From: Tubiluchus corallicola
Lineage: Eukaryota > Priapulida > Priapulimorpha > Priapulimorphida > Tubiluchidae
DNA length: 64,000 nt
NCBI GenBank assembly: GCA_030141605.1
Contig: JAQGDQ010000095.1
Location: 124,001-188,000 of the forward strand
Direction of reading: 5' to 3'
Below, piece by piece: positions 23,544 through 64,000 of this stretch. Numbering within the stretch: the first letter of the stretch is position 1; every line of letters begins with the position of its first letter. A program made the translations under genes and the position numbers. The notes under the pieces were generated by a model. It did not search any database. It was not told where the DNA came from and saw only the letters and a list, made by a program, of their open reading frames with translations.

Positions 23544-24491
23544 ATGGAGCCTGGATGTGATTATGATTTGTTAAATACCAGAAAGGGACATACTGGATAT
23601 ATGGCACCTGCAGATTATGGCTACTTTACTGATTCACAAGTATCCAGTTCTAGCAAAGATCTAGACGGCATTGAACAGCAGCTGCTCTGCCATGAATCAT
23701 TGTCACAAGAATGGGAGGCATTTGAGCAGTTAGAGCACGAGTTAGGTGATAATTTTAACTGTCAAGTTTCTACAGCTGTTGTGCCAACTAGTGATGGCGG
23801 TCTCATACTGCCACAATCCGGTCTTTGTGATTTCTTCAACATCAGTTCTGTACCAAGTTCAGTAGTTGTAACACTTGCTAGTACACCTTCGTCACCTGCC
23901 ATGCTTGTACCAGGAACACCTATCAGATCAACAAGAACAGCACCATCTCCATTCTTGGACACAAGTTTTCTACAAGAATTTACGGAAGATCTGTTTAGCA
24001 GTTCTGACAGCAGTGGCACATCAAGTAACACATCTGACTATACTGAAACGCCATGTTCTGAAGAAAATAATGAGTTGGCTACCACTTCCAGTTCAAATGA
24101 TATTGAATTGTCTGCGCCAAATATGCTCTTTTCTTCCGTACAAACAGCACAGCCTTCATCACAACATTTGACATCAGCATCCTCACAGCAATCTGCTCAC
24201 AGCCAATCGAGAAGAGATTTACAGTATATGGAAGAGATCTTGTCTCAGCAATTCGGTAGCCAGCATTTGGATGAAAATGATATATATTTTCCAAATTCGC
24301 CTCCTGAATTTGATTCCTCACAAGAGGTGCCAGAATGGGAATCTCAGGAACTTGATGAGGCAGAACTTTTTGCAAATAGTGACGATGATGACGCATTGGT
24401 ACCAGGACTGCAAAGCCGTCTTTCGCCAACTTGTGGAGGTGGTATTTTGGATGAACACACAGTCCCTACCTGGTATCGTAGAGAAGAATGA
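23544..24491 (+). CDS. Unrecognised acidic Ser/Thr-rich protein, 315 aa, single coding exon
   Basis: I do not recognise this protein. It is a single open frame of 315 codons, the longest in the window, and is preceded by a pyrimidine tract and an acceptor-like TTTTACTAG at 23516-23524. The coding region is therefore probably intronless behind a 5' UTR intron. It has no signal peptide, membrane segment or folded-domain signature. The composition is low-complexity: Ser/Thr-rich stretches around residues 130-230, acidic patches (SDDDDAL near residue 280) and several Ser/Thr-Pro sites (STPSSP, PGTPIRS, APSP, NSPPEF). This suggests a disordered, phosphorylated nuclear or regulatory protein, perhaps with an acidic activation region. 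A short helix-prone segment near residues 54-70 (WEAFEQLEHELGDNF) faintly resembles a BH3 motif. Synonymous-looking codon use and the ATG in AT-rich context support a real gene. No conserved function can be assigned. Confidence 0.7.
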   Translation: MEPGCDYDLLNTRKGHTGYMAPADYGYFTDSQVSSSSKDLDGIEQQLLCHESLSQEWEAFEQLEHELGDNFNCQVSTAVVPTSDGGLILPQSGLCDFFNISSVPSSVVVTLASTPSSPAMLVPGTPIRSTRTAPSPFLDTSFLQEFTEDLFSSSDSSGTSSNTSDYTETPCSEENNELATTSSSNDIELSAPNMLFSSVQTAQPSSQHLTSASSQQSAHSQSRRDLQYMEEILSQQFGSQHLDENDIYFPNSPPEFDSSQEVPEWESQELDEAELFANSDDDDALVPGLQSRLSPTCGGGILDEHTVPTWYRREE

Positions 24492-25639: not shown

Positions 25640-25840
25640 GGCCAATATTGTACAACAAAATTTTTATAACCATATTCAGACAAAACTGCACCAATATTGG
25701 CACAACATTGGAAAATTATCCAATATTGGAAACATGGTTTACACATAATATGTCTTATATGGATATTATATCAATATAAAACATGTGTAAACCATGTTTC
25801 CAATATTGGATAATGGTCCATATTATCCAATATTGTCCCT
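25640..25840. repeat. 31-bp perfect inverted repeat with CCAATATTGG palindromes
   Basis: Positions 25715-25745 and 25784-25814 are exact reverse complements (31 bp) separated by a 38-bp AT-rich spacer; the arm includes GGAAACATGGTTTACACA. The palindrome CCAATATTGG occurs at 25691-25700, 25720-25729 and 25799-25808, with partial copies (GGCCAATATTG, CCAATATTGTCCC) on both sides. The array looks like a MITE end or a hairpin satellite unit. No flanking target duplication was identified. Confidence 0.6.
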
Positions 25841-26380
25841 TTTTTCGAATTTTTAGTGAAACTACCAGTGGAAGGAGATATATCGCTCTTTGGAAAGAGG
25901 AAGGCTAGAAACAGGGCTACACGATGGTGTGAGCTACATTTTAGGAAACATCCACTGTGAGGAGCTGTGATGAGTTGATTGATATATATATATATTTCAA
26001 ACATTTCCATGATAAAGACCATAGGTAATTAAAGTGCAAAATTGTTTGAATCCATAATTTTAGGTTCGAATCGAATCTGAACTAAAAAGATTGTTTTAAT
26101 CAGACTTAAACGCTCGATGCTCACACCTACTAGGAACACAATAAACCGAAGAGATGTAAGTGGCTTATAATTATACAAAAGTTCATAAACAGTAGATTTT
26201 TTCACTTAACACTTTTTAAAATTAAATGTAAGTGCCTCGGCTAATTTTATTACACTTACATATAACTTCTAATGTAATGAATTAATTAATATATTTATAT
26301 ATTATACACAAATTTTATTACACTCTTATAGAAATTAGACAAATTGTTATAAACAAACAATTAATTAAAAATTTGATATC

Positions 26381-26714
26381 TGTTGTGGAGATCGCTGGCA
26401 TCTATTAGAATTACATAGAACATTGTAGAATGTTCCGTTGGAATGATCGTCTTACCGTCTGGAACATTACTTCTGGAAGCTTCTTGGGCACGCTATATAA
26501 GGCGAAACAGGCCGCTGACAAGGGAGCATGCAGATCTCGCGCGGATGTATACTTACATTTTCAGATACACTTAAACATTTTCACGTTTACTGTAATCATT
26601 TCGCGTTCCTTCATACTTTTGTGTTGTAGAGTTCTCGCTTAATAAAATAGTTTTATTTGACGGCGTGTTTTCTGGTTTTCTCTACGTGCCTTCCGAGAGA
26701 AAGAAAACACAACA
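26381..26714 (+). mobile_element. Solo LTR, 334 bp, with 5-bp target duplication
   Basis: The element begins TGTTGTGGAG and ends AAACACAACA, so the TG...CA ends lie in a 7-bp inverted repeat (TGTTGTG/CACAACA). ATATC flanks it on both sides (26376-26380 and 26715-26719), a perfect 5-bp target duplication. Inside are a TATA box (26494-26500) and AATAAA (26641-26646), in the order expected for U3-R-U5 on the plus strand. No internal retrotransposon sequence or second LTR adjoins it, so it is a solo LTR left by recombination. Its size and structure fit a Ty3/gypsy-type element, but the clade cannot be fixed. It lies about 290 bp upstream of the ATP6V1D start codon, on the same strand. Confidence 0.88.
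26471..26500 (+). promoter_or_regulatory. Heat-shock element and TATA box of the solo LTR
   Basis: 26471-26483 reads TTCTGGAAGCTTC, a perfect three-unit heat-shock element (TTCnnGAAnnTTC). TATATAA follows at 26494-26500. A two-unit GAATGTTC lies at 26428-26435. Heat-shock factor binding to such an array next to a TATA box would make the LTR stress-inducible; that is inferred from the motif only. Confidence 0.65.
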
Positions 26715-26831
26715 ATATCAAACTTTAAAGGCTGCAGAAACTGAAAAATTATGAGTGAGCAATCGCCAGCACCGTAAATACATAGTTATGGGTTGCTCAA
26801 TGCTCACATACTGCTAATTCTTCGGAATTTT

Positions 26832-26843
26832 CGCGCATGCGTA
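26832..26843 (+). promoter_or_regulatory. NRF1-like site in the ATP6V1D promoter
   Basis: CGCGCATGCGTA differs from the NRF1 consensus YGCGCAYGCGCR at one position and lies about 160 bp upstream of the ATP6V1D ATG, in a locally GC-richer patch (roughly 26825-26925) typical of housekeeping promoters. No TATA box is evident between it and the ATG. Confidence 0.45.
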
Positions 26844-27005
26844 ATAGCGCAAATGCGGTATATGGACTTGCGCTAAACAGCGTCCAACAGGTATACGAGA
26901 ACGCCACCAGTCACTAACCAATTTTCTTTCAGTGCAATTTTGGTACATTTGGAAGTGATCTTAAATCGTTTTTGCTAATCACTTGTTTTTGTAAAACTAG
27001 TAACT

Positions 27006-30000
27006 ATGTCAGGAAAAGATAGAATTGCAGTCTTCCCTTCGCGAATGTAAGCTTAAATATATTCTTAGTGTTAGGTATAAATGAACTCGGGTATTATTTC
27101 TCAGGCTAATGGACGCATTAGAATGATAAATGCTGTATTTCATCACGTTGTGCTAAAGCTATTGCACTTCTTTATAAGGCTGTAGTTAGACCAATACTTA
27201 AATATGCGTGCATTGTTTGGTCACTACAGTATGTTACTTTTAAAAATGCTTTAGAAAGAACTCAGTGGAGGTGTTTTAGTCTGGCCTTTGATATTCAACC
27301 TGACTCTGTGTCTTCTCTTGAGCAACGCCGTGAATCTATAGATCTTATTAACTGTTATAGGTCATTAGTGGTAGTTCTATTTTGTGTAGCGACAAATTTT
27401 TTCTAGACCATTTACGTGGACACAATTCTACATTATATGTGCAATATTTTCGCACTAATATCAGGCCATTTCTTTTCTGTTGTGGGCCCTTGGAATACAC
27501 TTAATAGTGAAACAGTTGACGCATCAAGTCTGCCACAGTTTCGCATATTGTTGAGGAGAGACCGTCAATAACCATGTTGTGGTTAGGTCTCTTAGACTTC
27601 CCAATCATAAACTATAATGTAGATTAAGTGGTATCATAATTGCTTAGATTCTGTGATGTACCATTTGCATATGAATTCGATTGGTGTGCGTACATTTCGG
27701 CACAGAGGTTTGGATACATGAGGCTTCGCCACAAACGTTCGTACACATAGGTCATTTTTGACACTTGACGCATAGGTAATTTAGACACAAGGCGGATTTG
27801 AACGGTGCACAGCAAGTTTGGTACAGATAAACTTGGTCCTGGTGATTTTGGTTCGATAAAATTTTTGCACTGGGGAATATCAGGTACAGGGAAAATGTGG
27901 TACTTGGTAAATACAATACTGATGAAGTATTGTTTAGCGTTTTTGGCGCAAGTAATTGACATATTGAAGTAAATCTGGTACAACATAAAATGGTATGGAA
28001 CAGGTTTGATGCTAGGAATGTTTAGTACTGGAAAAGTTTGGTACTAGGAAAATTTGATACAGGGAAAGTTTGGTACAAGGAAAGTTAGTATAACGAAGAC
28101 ACCTTTTATAATGATCTTTTCAAAAAAGTTGTAGAGTTTCATATTGTTGCAACTGTTTTTATTTGGTTTTTTGTTGTTATATGTTATTTCATACGATGTC
28201 GTTTTGTCTATTTCTTGATTGCTCCTTTGTTGTGAACACATAACATATTAGTGTCCAAATAAGTTGTGTTCAAATATCATGTATATCTAAAACACCTAAC
28301 ATCTAAATGATGCACATTGCCAAAATACCTAGTCTCCAAATCTCCTATGTGTCCAGTATACCTAGTGCCCAAATGCCCCATATGTTCAATATACCTTGTT
28401 CAATATGTGTCCAAATGTCCTACTTGTCCAAAATGCCTAGTGTCTGACTAGCCTATGTGGCCAAATAACCAAATAACAGCCAATAAATTCACATCGGTTC
28501 AGTACTGAACCTTCGTTCCTTCTTCCTCAAAACCTCAACATTCACTTTCATACACTCGCTATGAAACCTAAATGTTAATTTTAACACTATTAATTGTTTC
28601 CTTATCAGAGGTCATTGATTTTACAATGTTACGGCTGTTTATCAGCAGTAATTGTGCTTTATCTTGGCTGGCGTTACAACAGGGTCGATATACTATGTAA
28701 AACGAACTTTTGGCACAACAGATAGTTTGGCGGATGGCAGTAGATGAGGTTGGCGGCATTCTCTATGTTTAATATATTGTGACAATCGGGACAAGGCAAA
28801 AGTTGGCGTTATCGCGAGGCTGGCGTTATAACAGGGGTGGTATAAGGTTCGACTATATTTCATACCAGAAACTTTATTTTTAAGTGACCCTTGAATGATG
28901 GGAGATTTCATAGCTTTATCCATTAACCAGTTCGAGGTCCTTACTTCGGTCCTTCAAAAGCTGAAAGAGTGCTACTCCTAGCATTATGGAAGCTGCTTTT
29001 AGTGCACTCCCCTCAGCGCTTATTTAAAAGATTCAATATTGGGGGCATTAGCACTATCACTGCCTAAAACTCCTACAATTTCTGCACAACATTGTAGACA
29101 AAAAGTGATTTCTTATATTCATGTACATGTGAATACTGGACTCTGCGAGAATTTTCGAAGCATTTATTCGTAATCAACACTGTGTCTTTATTCTGTATTT
29201 TACACACAATGACAAGATCAAGTTTGTCATGCTCTGCTCCAAGGTAGACATACAGCTGAAATCAACGTTGTTGGCAAAGCCTGGCATCTTCTTTGTACTC
29301 TTTTCATATTATCTTTAAAAGATACATATTGCTGTATCCAAACAAGTCCAGTATTTTTTTAATTAGAGCTTTATAGTTGATCTTTCAATGATGCCTATTC
29401 CTTAGTTAGCAGTTATTATAACATGACTAATATGAATTATATAATCAATGAACTTTACTGAACTTGAGGCATTACACCGTTACGTAAAACTTGATCTCAA
29501 GTTATTAACATTGGTGTATCAAATTGTGATTAAGTTATCAGGTTTCGCCTGAAGAATCTGTTGGTCAGACAAAGATTCAGTGTTGTCAAAATCTATCTGT
29601 AACATGTTGGAATCAAACAGACGAATCAAATCCTTTTGAATTCTTGAATGTCGTCAATAAAAATACTTATCCATGATAACACATATTCTGCCAAATCACT
29701 GGCAAATATTTACTACAAAACAATAAGAACCACTAAGCATTCTCTGTGGAATACCACTGTGAAAATGAGTCCATTTAGTAGACAGTCTATGTAAAACAAG
29801 ACCTGTTGTCTTTTGCAAGCAAGAAAAGAGCGAAACCAATGAATTGGTTTACTTTGCCGCTGATAGCAGAAAACAACATTTTCTGCAGCAAGTATTCAAA
29901 GGTTACTGAGTCAAATGCTTTACCCATATTTGTGGTATTAGGAGGAAAGCAAATTTTAAAGAGGTTGCTAAAATATTAAATATTGCATTTTCAGGGCTCA

Positions 30001-33000
30001 GACAGTGATGAAAGGCCGATTAAAAGGTGCACAAAAAGGGCATAGTTTGTTGAAGAAGAAAGCTGATGCACTGACAATGCGATTTAGAATGATTTTGAAG
30101 AAAATAATTGAGGTTTAGACTTTACACTGTTACTGCTTTTTTATATTTTTAATGTTGTTTTTTATGTCAAAACTTCGTGGTTATTTTGTGATGCAAAATG
30201 TCTGGTAGTAGCTCAGAAATTTAACTGAGTTAAATAATCAAAGGAATGGCTTAGTAGTCACAGTATGTTTCATTCAAGTAATGACAGCTGTGATTAGTGT
30301 TTCTTTAACGACTAGCTGAGCACCGAGTAGCAGGAAAATCATTTCTGAGCACTTTCGCATGTAATCTTGTCTTGCCTATCTTTTCCTTAAAAATATATTA
30401 ATATGCATCCGAACATAGTTAAGACATTCCTGTCAGATCATGGATCCTGCTTTCTAGAATGCCAGACCTTATAAGAAAAAAACTACCAACAAGTAACATA
30501 GACGACATTGTGGCATAAAATTTATGCCTTTTAGATTGCAGTAGTAATGCTTCAAAGCGTTGGCAATGATACTGGATAAAGTGTTCACAGATACTGGAGC
30601 ATGCTTTGCAATTTTTCATATACAGTTTAATCCTGGTAACATGATTTTCAGGGGACCTGGATATTTTTCTTATTAAGAGTGTTTTGCACTATCCATTACA
30701 TACATTTTTATTAACTCCTAAAATAGCAATTATGTGATGCCAGTAGTCTATACATTGGTTATCTTTTGATCAGTGAACATAATTTAACTTGTTTAACACC
30801 TGTTTTGCACAAGTACAAATTACAAGCAACACACTGTCAGTCAGTCTAGCAGAAGCAAGCCTGCAAGCAAGAAGGGTTAGTGCTGTGAGAGAGTCTGCAG
30901 TATATGACTTTTTGTTGGTTTGGTATTAAATGTATAATTGGATACCTATAAGCAGCCTGCAGTAACAAATATAGGGAATTTAAACTATCATGGCAAATTT
31001 TTATCAGCGTGGGAAGCCCAAACCCAAGCAATAATCTGACTGTGTGGCATTTAAACCTATGCAGCTGATTGAATAAATCAACAGTAGGCCTAGCCATGAT
31101 ACTGTACACACACTACATGCCTTACCTTATCATGCAAAATGAGTTGTAAAAAACGATTGATAAAGTTATGAGCAGGTTTGACAGCAGGCGAAGAGTATCT
31201 AGACGTGGCAGGCCATAGCAGAAATTGTATTACAAGTATTTTTTCATCATATTGAACTCATATTAGTGGAACTTTGAGAAATAATTATATAAAAGGGAGT
31301 TTTGTATTAACCATGAGTGATTATGTAGGTTATAACCTTGGTAGCAGAGACATAATAAAATCATCGTATTATGGAGAGTTTTAGCTGAATCATATAACCG
31401 GGATTCGGCGGTATTTATTTTATGGATATATGCTTTCAGAAACCAGGCCAATGAAACTGGCAGTTATTTTGAATGTTCAATATTAGTTTAAACTTTACAG
31501 TACAGACTACGTCTGATGCAAGTATTTTCGTGGTGCAAGTGCTAAATGCAAGGTGCTAATAAAAGAATAATGGCCGTTACAATAAATCTAACACTTCATT
31601 AGATCAAACAAGTGGCTCAAATACAATTTGGAAAAAAATGCATTTTGTCTCTATACATCTATACATGAACTTTTTTAGCTTCTATACATTAACAGTTTAA
31701 ATGAATGTTAAATATTGCTTCACTTAGGCTACAGTTTTGTGATAGTGCTCTGTAAAAAATACATGTAACAAGTTAGATAAAATCCAATTACTTGGCGTAT
31801 TAACTTGTATCATATTACACATTTGACAATTTCATTTGTTAATATATCAATAAATTTTACACTTTTTTGTTTTGTAGACAAAAGTTTTGATGGGGGAGGT
31901 GATGAAAGATGCATCATTCTCATTAGCAGAAGCCAAATTTGTTATTGGAGACTTCAATCATGTTGTTCTTCAAAATGTAACCAAAGCTCAGACGAAAGTG
32001 CGTTCAAAAAAGGACAATGTAGCAGGTAATGGAATACATTAATTACTGTTAACACTGTAATTCTCATCTCTGGGGTACAAATATGTGAGGAAGATATTAT
32101 ACCCGGCATGGATTTTTCAGATCCAAATCTAATGTAAACAGTCACACAGCTAACAGTTACTGGACTATTTATGAGTAGTACCTGCTGTATGTGGTCTCAG
32201 AACTTCTTAATAGCCAGGAACCAATTTTATTTGTAATGTAAACAGAATATATACCAGTCCCGTATCTTTCCGTATACTGCAGTTACGTAATTGCCTGTAC
32301 ATGCTCAATTGTGATCTAGCAAACTTGACAATGAAGAATACCACATTTGATATTGAGCACATTTCGTAATCCTTTACCATTAATTTACTTTTCAAAATTA
32401 TAAGCATTTTGTAATATTTATTAGCTCTCTTGCAGAGTCTAGATTACAGAAGATGAAATGAGGCAATTTATTTGTTTACAGGTGTTACACTTCCGGTTTT
32501 TGAACATTACGTAGATGGATCTGACAGTGAGTAGACAACTTAAGCTATCAGAGAATTATTTAATTGGCAATATTCCTGTAGTTTTTTTTTTAATTAATAC
32601 AAATAGTCATCTTAGTTCGCGTTAAGTTCAGAGATTATTGCACAGCAATGTCACAAGTTAGTTTAAGAAATGAACAGAACGAAAATATAAAAAACTACTT
32701 TCCTGAGAGTTCATTTTGACGAGTCGTATTGCAATTAATGTCTTTTCTAAACCACGGAGGGTTCAACTCTAATTTTGTTTGACCGAGTGTAGCTAATGAT
32801 AACTTTTTTTACCGTTTTACAGTACAATATAGTATACTTATTCGTGTACATAAAAAAATAGCTTGAAAGGGTGTTAAACATAATTATACTTAATAGGTTA
32901 TGAACTAGCTGGACTTGCTCGAGGAGGTCAGCAGGTTGGCAAAATCAAGAAGAATTATGCAAAAGCAGTAGAACTGTTAGTTGAACTAGCTTCTTTGCAG

Positions 33001-35323
33001 ACGTCTTTCGTAACACTGGATGAAGTCATTAAAATAACAAATAGAAGAGTTAATGCCATAGAACATGGTATGACAGAAAGTTGTTTACAGTATTTTGTAT
33101 TAAATTTTAAGTTACATTAACTTCCAGGGGCAAACTCTTTATTAGATGAAGATGCTGTGCTGGGGTGATTTTACCATAGCCCTCTACCTAGCACATTCCT
33201 GACATTTTTCCCATGGGACTTCGCTTGGCAAGCCATTGGGTGCTTGCTTTGCAACTAAACATAAGAAATTAAACTGCTTAATAATTCATTAGGCTTGCAA
33301 GCTAGGGTCATGAAACGTGCAGGATGGGTAACCTAAAGCAGGGGAAGGATAGCAGTATGTTAGCCTTTGACCCCTGTTCAAGGGGTGAAGGGCAGTGGGC
33401 ATTGGCCAGTTTTATGATTCAACTCCTATGGCTATTTTTTTTCTCAAGTATCTAGGTACTAAGAGGTAAATGTACACTTGGGAATTTAAAAAGGCGGGAC
33501 TCCTTAAGGCCCGACATAGGAGTCAAAACGTGAAAATTAGGACAAACAGGTTTATCATGCAACTGTCATGTCTTATAGTATTGGACTAGTTCTGAGTCAA
33601 TGTTTATGAATGTATTGGTATTATTATTATATTATATGTTTGCAGAACTGGGCAAATGTATGTGCATTTGCTTTTATTCTGAGTGGGTAACCAGGTAGGT
33701 ATGAATGTGCTTTAAGTATTTTTCAAAAAGTGGGCATGGCCAGATCACGTGACATGAGAAAAAGTGTTAAAACAGGGTTTTGTAAATAACTGAACAAGTA
33801 AACAAGCTGGTGTCACAAAATTTGCAGAGCAGGACCTTGGCAAGGTCCTGAATGATGACCTTGGGTCAAAGAGTCAGTGTCAAGGTCAGTAGATGTATAT
33901 CAGTTTTCCGTTATGTCTCCTACAGTTTCTGAGCTGTTTTTTGGTATGTGGCTAGACAGGTCCAAATTCTTAAAGCATATCTGATCATTTAGATAGGATC
34001 ATTTACATAGTGAAAAAAATTTCTGCTAGGGTTGGGTGGGTCTGTGCAAATGTTTTTCCAATTCTAAAGAATAATGACCTGTAGTAAAATTAAAGGTCTT
34101 AAAGAAACAATTTGAATGGTATAGTCATAGTCATTGGACAAATTCTAAAGAGTAATGACTTGTAGTAAAATTAAAACTCTTAGTGATGCAAATTGAACGA
34201 TATGGGTTGATCCATGTCTAGAGTCATTGGATAAAAAGTGACCATTTCGCTTTCATTAAAACGAAATGCATTTCATTTCGTTAAAATGAAATGCATTTCC
34301 TAGGTTGTCAAAGAGCAATTACGAACTTTAGACCCAAGGCCCATGGATTAAGGTTAAAAAGTGATATTTTGTTAATGCGAAATGCAATTCCTAGGCTACA
34401 AAACATGGCGAATTCATTGAAGGCAAAATTATGACATCCAGACAAAAGACTATTGTTATTTCAAGTTGAAAATCTGTAATTATTGTTTGCTCAGTTTCGC
34501 CAGACACAGTGTCAGCTAGTTTTCTTTTTAGTTATCATTCCTCGGATAGAGGCAACGTTGGCATACATCATTTCCGAACTGGATGAAAGGGAAAGAGAAG
34601 AATTTTATCGGTTTGTAATAAATAATATTGCTGCAACACAATAGATGTCGTAATATGTAAACTGAATTTGGTGAAAACATTATTCACAAGTTTTAAAAAT
34701 GGTGCACCCATATGGAAATTTATTGAGGAGTGAATAGATACTATTGTCCATTTGTTGGTGTGCCGTAAAGACACCAATGCTAATGCGCAATAATGATGTA
34801 GCGACCTAATATTATAGGGTCGATTAGTGCATAATGGCAATCATTTTGCTGACCCTGGATTCCCTAGTCTCCAGGTCAATTTCTGTCTTTTTCTATAACA
34901 TTAAAATGAAATTTGGTATTTATATAGTAGATGATTAAAGCAAAATTTAATTAAGAGTGTTTTACCTTAAGCTGCTAATAAATCCATCAGTGTGTATGAT
35001 GCTCAAATTCAAGAACAAAAAGGACTTAAGAAAAACATGAAGCTTGTGTGAATTATATGACCACGTCAGCAATTTTTTCAAGCAATGGCATTGAGACTTA
35101 TAATGTTGAAGTAACTGACATATCATATTGTTGTCAAGTGAATAACACTATAATGTGTTAACATTTCTTTCGTTGCAGACTGAAGAAAATACAGGGCAAG
35201 AAAAAGAAAGCTAGAGATGTCAAAGAGAAAGCTTTAGCTGAACTGAAAAAAGAAGGCATTGATGTTGACAATCCAGCTAATATATTAGATGATACAGCTG
35301 ATGATCAAGACTTGTTGTTCTAG
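27006..35323 (+). CDS. ATP6V1D: V-type proton ATPase subunit D, 7 exons
   Basis: Subunit D forms the central rotor shaft (with F) of the V1 sector of the vacuolar proton pump, coupling ATP hydrolysis to proton transport across endomembranes. Exons: 27006-27046, 29995-30112, 31878-32025, 32482-32526, 32897-33067, 34532-34610 and 35179-35323. All have GT-AG borders and closing phases, giving 248 residues against 247 in human. The start [14 protein letters not shown] is conserved. Diagnostic blocks follow in order: [100 protein letters not shown]. The protein ends in the usual acidic DLLF tail with TAG at 35321-35323. N- and C-terminal segments should form the long coiled coil of the rotor. Intron 1 (about 2.9 kb) is filled with repeats; the exons are intact. 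Confidence 0.97.
27140..27572 (+). pseudogene. Fragment of a non-LTR retrotransposon reverse transcriptase (C-terminal end)
   Basis: From 27142 the plus strand encodes [20 protein letters not shown] followed by [18 protein letters not shown] and [10 protein letters not shown]. This is the typical post-catalytic region of LINE reverse transcriptases (L-Y-K-x-x-V-R-P-I-L-x-Y-A, then an RxxxxL segment). A frameshift follows, after which NIRPFLF and GPWNTLN resemble the family's terminal WNSLP block. The copy is truncated at both ends, interrupted, and inert. It is in ATP6V1D intron 1, same strand as the gene. Confidence 0.7.
27700..28480. mobile_element. Foldback-type element, copy A (arms of 15-16-bp tandem units)
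   Basis: The left part (about 27700-28090) is a degenerate array of 15-16-bp units around GGTACAAGGTAAATTT. A unique core of about 150 bp follows (28090-28245). The right part (28245-28470) is an array of units such as GTCCAAAATGCCTAGT, which resemble the left units in reverse complement. The core (AAGTTGTAGAGTTTCATATT) and the order of irregular units match copy B at 59636. There is no protein-coding capacity. It lies in ATP6V1D intron 1; edges are approximate. Confidence 0.6.
28655..28860. repeat. Direct repeat pair in ATP6V1D intron 1
   Basis: GGCTGGCGTTACAACAGGG near 28668 and GGCTGGCGTTATAACAGGGG near 28822 are near-identical, about 153 bp apart, each followed by a GGTATA/CGATATA-like motif. 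The pair suggests two units of a decayed tandem or dispersed repeat; nothing else in the interval is recognisable. Confidence 0.45.
33831..33888. promoter_or_regulatory. Cluster of AGGTCA-type nuclear-receptor half sites
   Basis: A 19-bp palindrome AGGACCTTGGCAAGGTCCT (33831-33849) is followed by TGACCTTG (33856-33863, reverse of CAAGGTCA) and TCAAGGTCA (33880-33888). Extended half sites of this form are bound by monomeric nuclear receptors (ERR/SF-1 type). It sits in ATP6V1D intron 5. Function is inferred from motif shape alone, and it may be part of a repeat. Confidence 0.3.
34058..34400. repeat. Local tandem duplications with ATGCATTTC palindromes, ATP6V1D intron 5
   Basis: ATTCTAAAGAATAATGACCT (34058) and ATTCTAAAGAGTAATGACTT (34142) start two copies of an 85-bp unit, both ending near AGTCATTGGA. 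Next, 34246-34301 is a run of GAAATGCATTTC-type palindromes, echoed at about 34376-34397 (GCGAAATGCAATTCCTAGG). The block is non-coding. Confidence 0.55.
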
Positions 35324-61300: not shown

Positions 61301-64000
61301 GTGACTTTTACCTAATTGCTCTTTCCACATCTGTAATTTTACTTATGACTGCCACTATATCCATAGTAATCACAGAAATTGTCATAATTCAGTTAAGTCA
61401 GCAAATAGTTTCGTGTTTAGATTGAATGAATAGGCGCCCTCCCACCGTAGTTTTAGAGAAATGATTGCTAGTGTTAATATAATATTAGTAATCATTTTTT
61501 AATGCCAGTTTTTCCTTAGTTTCATTGATATGGCCATTGCAGGGTTCTTGTTTGTTTGAATGCTTGAAGTTTGTTAAATTAATTGTGTTCCATAAAATAA
61601 TCATACAGGATTTTTTTAGTAATAATAATAATAGTCTATTCTATGCGAATTTATACAATGGTACTGGTATTCTACTGCTAAAACATCTTTACACGCAAAT
61701 TTACATTTAGATTAATCTGCTCTATTCTCGTTACAACGTTTACTAGTCTATGGGTGCTGTACAGGCATTTTACCAACCAATGCAACCATTAACACCAGTG
61801 AAACAGATGTAAACTTACGTACACATATGTTATCACTATAATGAAATTCCTGATCCGCAAGCATCATTGAAAATTTCGGATTAAAAGCAGAACGTAGTTC
61901 AGTTAGACTTCTATAAGACTAGATATATTTTCCTTTATAAATCTTGTAGCACTAGCACTTAGCTTACAGGCTTCCTTGTGTAACATTGCCAGTAGCGACA
62001 AATAGATGTTATCTCTATAACATGCATAAGATTGGTCTCTGATGTCATAATGGCAGATTGGCGGCTTTCTCTTTTCTGCCCAGCCCAGTGGTCAGCTAGT
62101 GTTTATTATGTAAGAAACTCCGAAAGCTGGCTCTTAATGAATTTTTAATAATCGGCTGCTGGTATCCATATTTCGGTCTAGTCTTTCCAATGGGGTTCTA
62201 AGCCTAGTCAGTCTTATTCACCTTAGAGTACATAATTACAATGTTGATTTATGAATATAACGGAAACACAAGAGCATGACTATACTGACAAAGTGACTAA
62301 GGTCTTGAAATTTCCCAAAAAATTAATAAACGGAACAATTTTAGACCATGTTTGAAAGTGTGCAGGCTCAATTTTTATCAGAACTAGTCTGTTATCTGTG
62401 ATTTGTTCATTACTTTAATTAACATTTCATTCATGAGGTAAAGGGTGGGATATACTACTTAGTGTACAGCAGGGGATGCTTGAAATCTTTAATTGAATAC
62501 TTGTCTTTATTTTCAGGGATATCAAAAAATGTAGATGTTGAACTTAAAAATCCGCGCAGCAGAAATGACATCTCCAGAGGAAGTGACCTAACTCTTAGAT
62601 GTCTAGTTAGAGGAAATCCGGAACCCAACATTGCATGGTATAAGAACAGCATTCGTCTGTTTGGAGGAGAAAGGATAAACATAAGGTCCAGCAGACTAAC
62701 ATTATCCAATGTCCGGGCAAAAGATAATGGGATATACCACTGCACAGCATCCAACAAAGCTGGTTCTCTGGACAGTATAAACAATTTTGCTCTTACAGTT
62801 CCAGGTAAATGAATCTTTTGGTGACTGTGAGATTGTTCCCAGTTATATCATCATTTTCTAAACTAGCGAACAGTTATTTTAACATTGTGGCTGAAATTAT
62901 TTTATGCATTAGACTTGTTTGTGATTTTACTCTGCAAAACAATGCCTATAAATAGTACCTTTATAAATTTCTTTGGTGGTGTTTTCATTGAGTTTTTTTT
63001 ACTTTCCATGATTAGAAATGACACTTGTTCTAGTTCAACCACATATTTGTGATAATACACAGCATTAGTTCGTCAAAGCTTATTCTATCATTTAATGAAA
63101 AAGTGAACTACTAAATTTGATCTTGTAGGCGATGGCGTTCCATTGATTAAAGTTCTACCTCAAGATGTGACCGTGAGAAAAGGTGATTCAACAACGATCA
63201 ACTGTCTTTATCAGAATGCTTTGCTGACTGAATGGTACATGAGAGACGAAGGACCACTGAAAAATACCTCCAGGTATATACATAATTTATGCATCAAGAT
63301 TTTAAACTAGTTTCTAATTATACATTTGCGAAATTCAGCGTACTTCTGTAATCTTGTTTGATGTCTGTCAACATTGTAATAATACAGTGATAAATCAATC
63401 ATGTTTCATACCTGGCTTTTCACTAAGTCGCTGTTCAACATTCCATTTTAGTTATACCTGATACTTAATATAATACGTTTTCAGACATGTTTTAAAAAAA
63501 TATGAATTCTAATTTTGAGTTGATTGACCTATTTTTGAGAAATAACTGAATCTTGAAAATTCAGTAATGTTGTTGTATTAATGAACAAGCCATTTCATGT
63601 GTTACAGTTTTTCTCAGCCTTAGTTTTGCTAGTATGTTGTAGTGTAGTCTAAGTCTACTTTTTACTCAACTTTTAGTGTTTCAGTCATAGGCTTACATAA
63701 TATTATTAGAAATCCTGTGCAAAAACTAAACTGGACACATTGTAATAGATAATTAGAGCATTTATGTAGATTTGGAAATTTCAGGTTTCTTCAAAAATAT
63801 AAAAATGATATCAGGTCAGGCCCCATAAATATAAACTTGAGGTAGGCTGATTCCCATTTTTAATAGCATTTCTGCGCCAAGAACATTACCTAAACAAAGC
63901 ATCCAGTAACAACTTCTAATTGCATTGTCAGTGTAAGTTAATTATTTTGCATTTGTTTTAGGATGTATATCTACAAAAATGGATCACTTCATTTTTCTCG
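49370..64000 (+). CDS. PTK7: PTK7-like receptor (inactive tyrosine kinase 7), N-terminal part only
   Basis: PTK7 (fly off-track, Hydra lemon) is a single-pass receptor with seven Ig domains and a catalytically dead kinase, acting in planar polarity and Wnt signalling. Exons seen: 49370-49391, 50956-51258, 62517-62804, 63129-63273 and 63962 onward, cut by the window edge. All junctions are GT-AG with matching phases. The protein starts with a signal peptide (MILIMLTGLVVTTVAQG). Ig1 in exon 2 has its Cys pair (QMNCQV, GLYQCVA) and core Trp (TWQF). The junction gives RLNVIWIS, matching the human NIKWIE between Ig1 and Ig2. Ig2 (exon 3) has LRCLV, IAWYKN and GIYHCTA. Exon 4 begins Ig3 (IKVLPQDVTV, INCLYQN, LTEWYM, close to the human VLAPQDVVV). 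Exon 5 continues IYKNGSLHF, like human VFANGSLLL. The kinase region lies outside the window; another Ig receptor is possible but the ordered matches favour PTK7. Confidence 0.8.
55105..55365 (+). pseudogene. Decayed LINE reverse-transcriptase C-terminal fragment
   Basis: The plus strand reads CNRVARNIFKCNPREHITIM, then HRELKLAS. This resembles the post-catalytic LINE segment where N-R-x-A-R is followed by H-(I/V)-T and an L-x-x-L block. Frameshifts follow; a downstream frame gives RQMHIACLLCIKNI, like the usual K-I-L-L-L-x-F-K. It is a short inert relic, and it explains the long open frame on the opposite strand (54863-55414). Confidence 0.45.
56250..56330 (+). repeat. Possible tRNA-derived SINE fragment
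   Basis: GAGGCGGTAGAGCACTTGAG contains the A-box/D-arm pattern GGTAGAGCACTTG common to tRNA-derived SINEs, but no B-box was found at the expected distance. A weak call on a single motif. Confidence 0.25.
56490..57195. repeat. Pair of related flanks around 0.6 kb, possible old element
   Basis: TGCGAGTGAGTGTGAACTTT with ACTAATGAATGGGAG (56513-56565) and TGCGAATGAATGCGAACTTA with ACTAATGAGTAAAG (57134-57185) are diverged direct repeats about 620 bp apart. The minus-strand frame between them (56671-56961, 96 codons) is not recognisable and may be coincidental. Confidence 0.35.
59636..60976. mobile_element. Foldback-type element, copy B (inverted arms of 15-16-bp units)
   Basis: The left arm (59636-59862) is a tandem array of units such as GGTACAAGTAAATAT and GGTACGAGGAAATTT, about 14 units at 15-16-bp spacing. 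The right arm (about 60690-60976) carries the same unit reversed (CTAGTACCAAAACTTCCTTG, GTACCACATTTTCCTAG). The 0.8-kb core holds a segment homologous to copy A's core (CAAGTTGTAGAGCATCATAC) and a CAN-rich tract. No coding capacity. Irregular units appear in the same order in both copies (GAAGTTTTGTCGGGCATTTT here, GAAGTATTGTTTAGCGTTTT in copy A). In intron 2 of the PTK7-like gene. Confidence 0.65.
60003..60300 (+). repeat. CAN-rich tract inside foldback copy B
   Basis: ACCACCACCAATCATTG, CATCATCATCATTG, CCACTGCCACTGCTGCC and CAACACTACACCCACC-like runs dominate. Composition resembles the tract at 38690-39010, suggesting either shared origin or convergent slippage. Not coding. Confidence 0.45.

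Follow-up and report, generated by a model that had tools for sequence, protein, structure and literature searches.

Introduction

In Arabidopsis, the LTR of the Ty1/copia element ONSEN (ATCOPIA78) carries arrays of HSF-type nTTCnnGAAn elements that couple the retrotransposon to the heat-shock response, and this HRE has been maintained over evolution; functional HREs were lacking from the solo LTRs and fragments of ONSEN in A. thaliana (PMC3907296, PMC5059998). The classification applied to ONSEN rates 3P elements as moderate in strength (PMC5059998), and a 3P HRE is present in the LTR of ROMANIAT5-2, also in Arabidopsis, which makes the adjoining gene APUM9 heat-responsive, an effect that was measured (PMC5059998). 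HSE-bearing Helitrons of Caenorhabditis supply a large share of the HSEs in the genome, as examined by HSF-1 ChIP and heat RNA-seq (PMC6927752), and in Cryptococcus the LTR retrotransposons TCN3 and TCN12 have putative HSEs in their LTR, with temperature-dependent mobilisation observed (PMC12810828). A literature search for HSE-bearing LTR families in animals gave no direct match, which is no proof of absence.

Here we describe a solo LTR upstream of the V-ATPase gene ATP6V1D in the priapulid Tubiluchus corallicola, located within the 64,000-nucleotide stretch of DNA that was analysed (the window), together with the family to which it belongs.

Results

A solo LTR with a heat-shock element upstream of ATP6V1D

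The LTR is bounded by TGTTGTG...CACAACA, forming a 7-bp terminal inverted repeat (TIR), and is flanked by a target-site duplication (TSD) of ATATC (Table 1). A sequence-only reading of this DNA had previously called it a solo LTR from its TG...CA ends, inverted repeat and duplication, and had noted a perfect trimer, a TATATAA and an AATAAA within it; all of these are present at the places claimed, with 10 bases between TTCTGGAAGCTTC and TATATAA. The LTR also lies on the same strand as ATP6V1D, as that reading had it, with 291 bases between its end and the ATG.

Table 1. Coordinates of features of the solo LTR and of ATP6V1D within the window.
Feature	Position	Strand	Basis
Target-site duplication, left, ATATC	26376-26380	.	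sequence reading
Solo LTR of Ty3/gypsy family, 334 bp	26381-26714	+	TIRs, TSD, genome relatives
HSE dimer GAATGTTC, upper U3	26428-26435	+	alignments; well conserved among copies
Leftover GAA of first trimer	26462-26464	+	alignments; relatives show GAATGTTCTGGAA
Perfect trimeric heat-shock element TTCTGGAAGCTTC	26471-26483	+	sequence; core triads conserved in family
TATA box TATATAA, putative LTR promoter	26494-26500	+	sequence; genome module counts
AATAAA poly(A) signal of LTR	26641-26646	+	sequence
Target-site duplication, right, ATATC	26715-26719	.	sequence reading
NRF1-like site CGCGCATGCGTA, 1 mismatch	26832-26843	.	sequence
ATP6V1D exon 1	27006-27047	+	tblastn; ATG at 27006
Other ATP6V1D coding segments	29996-30112, ~31878-32027, 32481-32528, 32899-33066, 34531-34611, 35177-35320	+	tblastn

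Alignment with its relatives showed that a 10-bp deletion just upstream of the leftover GAA has removed most of the first trimer from this copy. What is left is a weaker, single-trimer form of the array, together with the GAA unit and the upstream dimer. Of the dinucleotide shuffles of the window LTR, 0.5% contained a perfect trimer by chance, and 0.01% had a trimer preceding TATAWA by at most 40 bp. The copy diverges by 5.4% from the family majority, which is average for the family (rank 29 of 85 copies), and substitutions in U3 (3/113) compared with the remainder (15/220) showed no significant difference (p = 0.13). It has kept 16/16 of the majority CpG sites (rank 2 of 85 copies; median 0.78), which, as a post-hoc look at few sites, is consistent with an unmethylated promoter zone. 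A second allele with an empty site was searched for in the assembly and none was found, and a search of the window with Rfam gave no match. Upstream of the LTR, at 25709-25820, is a near-perfect, MITE-like 38-nt inverted repeat, the arms of which are 95% complementary and 36 nt apart.

The LTR belongs to a Ty3/gypsy family

Other genomic copies and a full-length element, which the sequence-only reading had proposed to look for, were both found, with a family size of at least ~130 copies and a full-length relative at C268. Searching the genome with the LTR gave 40 scored places, nearly all full-length and 77-86% identical, plus minor pieces; these are the best 40 scored of 1028 first-look candidates, and the alignments and counts are lower bounds, as are all genome counts given here, some stretches possibly being masked. 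Relatives of the window LTR are mostly 336-375 bp long, and many of the inspected copies are dispersed solo LTRs, with a 5-bp TSD in many. At L046:1403-2132 and G000 C479:7756-8346, family LTRs abut in opposite orientation, which may reflect either a rearrangement or the insertion of one copy at another's end.

The full-length element (C268, about 161.8-168.2 kb) has matching AGATT TSDs at both ends, with its 5' LTR followed by AATAT-TGGCACAGTCGACAGGAT, the latter being the PBS, and a G-rich PPT directly before the 3' LTR. Pfam domains were detected as separate pieces in the order RVT_1, RT_RNaseH_2, Integrase_H2C2 and rve, which is the Ty3/gypsy order; the RNase H and integrase matches are above the cut-off, while the RVT_1 pieces fall below it because the internal frames are broken. 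From this RT-RNase H-integrase order and the 5-bp TSD, the window LTR family is classified in the Ty3/gypsy superfamily. The 5' internal region has 45 matches in the genome. Many family copies are old, as at C268, where the two LTRs are 93.2% identical and the frames are broken, so the family may no longer be active.

The PBS TGGCACAGTCGACAGGAT is complementary to a tRNA-Ser-like 3' end plus CCA. Among the matches listed, three are exact genomic matches to this 3' end (G000 C1862/L100, C2091/L101 and C2163:144746), and the two that were inspected are tRNA 3'-half fossils followed by CCA, lying inside a repeat and not recognised as tRNA genes; for this reason a tRNA-Ser-like primer is rated only as likely for the family. 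These repeat-borne 3' ends may be the tail of a different retroelement.

Most family members share the heat-shock array

Most relatives carry GAATGTTCTGGAA...TTCT(G/A)GAAGCTTC, representing two perfect trimers 6 bp apart, just before TATATAAGG; in the L002 LTR these trimers occupy positions 82-94 and 101-113. At LTR positions 28, 38 and 48 there are three more GAA units, with what may be gap-type phasing. Using the HSE-TATA module CTTCTGGAAGCTTCN{0,20}TATATAAGG as a query we identified 57 exact occurrences in the genome, rising to 128 with R at one spacer base, compared with 0 for the reversed control in both cases. Likewise, TTCTRGAAGCTTC has 204 genome sites versus 13 for its reversed control, and as 128 of the 204 lie in the HSE-TATA module, this accounts for 63% of them.

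Copies were also collected using a search with R/U5 only, with their upstream parts then fetched, which made the choice of copies blind to the HSE, and 29 of these 31 copies carry a trimer. We merged them with our first set, which had been found by whole-LTR similarity, and removed near-duplicates, giving 57 copies, none of them selected on the trimer. The sequence-only reading had named a lack of the trimer in other copies as an outcome that would count against it, and the family behaves otherwise, with at least one trimer in 55 of the 57 copies and two in most. Bias in the set through selection on the HSE was rejected, as the R/U5-only set gives the same result, and a trimer peculiar to the window copy or arising as a chance match was also rejected by the genome module counts, the R/U5 set and the shuffles.

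HSF contact bases are preserved over the spacers

Across 36 copies, the core triads have a mean majority-base frequency of 0.966 compared with 0.78 in the interleaved spacers, and when the triad comb was slid by 1-6 bp, conservation was lower at every shift. On a tree of the 57 copies, for which the HSE region was left out of tree building, the 18 GAA/TTC core bases had 1.22 parsimony changes per site, while the spacers had 4.67 (p = 0.0002) and U3 positions 8-75 had 2.63 (p = 0.002). R/U5 is also highly conserved, with 1.56 changes per site, partly since copies were selected on R/U5; low change alone is therefore not specific to the HSE, and it is the contrast with the interleaved spacers that carries the argument. 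Conservation is also seen at spacer bases 85-86 in the first trimer. Overall, the contrast between core and spacer fits a mark of selection for HSF binding, acting on active source elements.

Host HSP70 promoters have a similar layout

The genome contains three matches to the HSF DNA-binding domain. Trimers such as GAAACTTCTAGAA are present at three host HSP70 genes, with TATATAAGCGCC (TATATAA) 15-23 bp downstream, and in this similar trimer-TATATAA layout the LTR follows the design of a host heat-shock promoter. Taken with the ~130 copies, the full-length element and the preservation of HSF contact triads across the LTR tree, the match to host HSP70 promoters gives good support to the earlier view of a solo LTR with a genuine heat-shock element. 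The assembly also contains three dnaK genes of bacterial type (L103, L104 and L105), in which no trimer was found; these are intronless HSP70 matches with bacterial-type DnaK N-termini (MGK-IGIDLGTTNSCVAVMEG), and probably come from bacterial symbiont or contaminant contigs.

The region between the LTR and the ATP6V1D start codon

Using tblastn with the human protein as query, we located seven ATP6V1D coding segments, two of which match PF01813. The interval from the LTR to the start codon (26715-27005) has a CpG o/e of 1.19, compared with 0.63 in the window, and is the probable native promoter region of ATP6V1D, a role assigned from its base composition and NRF1-like site. Between the LTR promoter and the ATG are the LTR's own AATAAA and eight upstream ATGs. 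There is a donor-like GTGAG at 26755 and an acceptor-like CTTTCAG ending at 26932, and it is speculated that these might splice out part of the leader.

Elsewhere in the window, intron 1 of ATP6V1D contains an open fragment (27143-27376) that by eye resembles the C-terminal part of a LINE reverse transcriptase, and an exon at 62462-62812 encodes an immunoglobulin I-set domain (PF07679, E 1e-16). A serine-rich, acidic open frame of 315 amino acids at 23544-24491, on the same strand, is a candidate upstream gene and has no match in Pfam.

Discussion

We consider it likely, with good confidence, that the U3 of this family is built as a heat-shock promoter, in which an upstream dimer and two adjacent perfect HSF trimers precede a TATA box. 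Under stress, activated trimeric HSF would bind the GAA/TTC array and drive transcription from the TATA box, and we propose that the element would as a result be copied when the host is stressed. On the sequence evidence the family is very probably heat-inducible. The window copy is a solo LTR, the product of recombination between both LTRs of such a retrotransposon; with one trimer and its TATA box, it may retain moderate heat-responsive promoter or enhancer activity beside ATP6V1D.

For the locus itself, the window LTR is probably a neutral bystander from a heat-responsive family, with the housekeeping promoter of ATP6V1D doing everything. Many inspected copies are likewise dispersed solo LTRs, the divergence of this one is average, and the NRF1-like site and CpG-rich stretch lie downstream of it, although the intact trimer, TATA box and CpGs directly upstream of the gene are less expected of a bystander.

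It is unlikely, though conceivable, that the LTR has rewired the host gene by giving ATP6V1D an alternative promoter, or an enhancer, that responds to heat. Its orientation and its distance of 291 bp upstream of the ATG are suitable, the trimer, TATA box and all 16/16 majority CpG sites are intact, splicing between the candidate sites at 26755 and 26932 could shorten the leader, and ROMANIAT5-2 and APUM9 offer a precedent (PMC5059998). However, a transcript starting in the LTR would run through the poly(A) signal at 26641 and eight upstream ATGs before reaching the start codon, ATP6V1D has its own CpG-rich NRF1-like region, one of the two trimers has been lost, and U3 shows no significant advantage in preservation over the other parts of the LTR (p = 0.13). 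A measurable effect of the LTR on ATP6V1D expression is accordingly rated here as doubtful, and we hold it improbable that, of more than 100 HSF-TATA cassettes seeded by the family, some, including that of ATP6V1D, drew housekeeping genes into the heat-shock response.

That the GAA/TTC array is a sequence accident or a site for a factor other than HSF appears very unlikely. The conserved spacer bases (85-86) of the first trimer would suit this, but the exact 5-bp alternating phasing of two trimers, the contrast between core and spacer and the similar trimers of host HSP70 promoters all argue against it.

Taking the family U3 as an HSF-driven promoter, we would have in an animal a Ty3/gypsy equivalent of plant ONSEN whose HSF contact bases are preserved and whose spacers are not, making it possible to read from sequence the selection on a transposon to hijack the heat-shock response. 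The family also offers more than 100 dispersed candidate heat-inducible promoters with which rewiring of stress networks can be tested, and one of these immediately precedes a V-ATPase gene.

Compared with known systems, the family shares with ONSEN an LTR array of HSF-type elements; it differs in being Ty3/gypsy and from an animal, in having two adjacent 3P trimers where ONSEN has a 4P element, in solo LTRs that keep the HSE, and in a heat response that is predicted from sequence. Membership in ONSEN/COPIA78 proper was rejected, as integrase lies after RNase H and not before RT. The window LTR resembles that of ROMANIAT5-2 in combining an LTR and a 3P HRE beside a host gene, although its effect on ATP6V1D is an inference. 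Like the Caenorhabditis Helitrons, the family is a big supplier of HSEs, but those are DNA transposons whereas this is an LTR element known from its sequence, and as in TCN3 and TCN12 the HSEs are in the LTR, with an animal rather than a fungal host. The ONSEN-like kind of element is hence already known, while the animal Ty3/gypsy family described here appears to be new.
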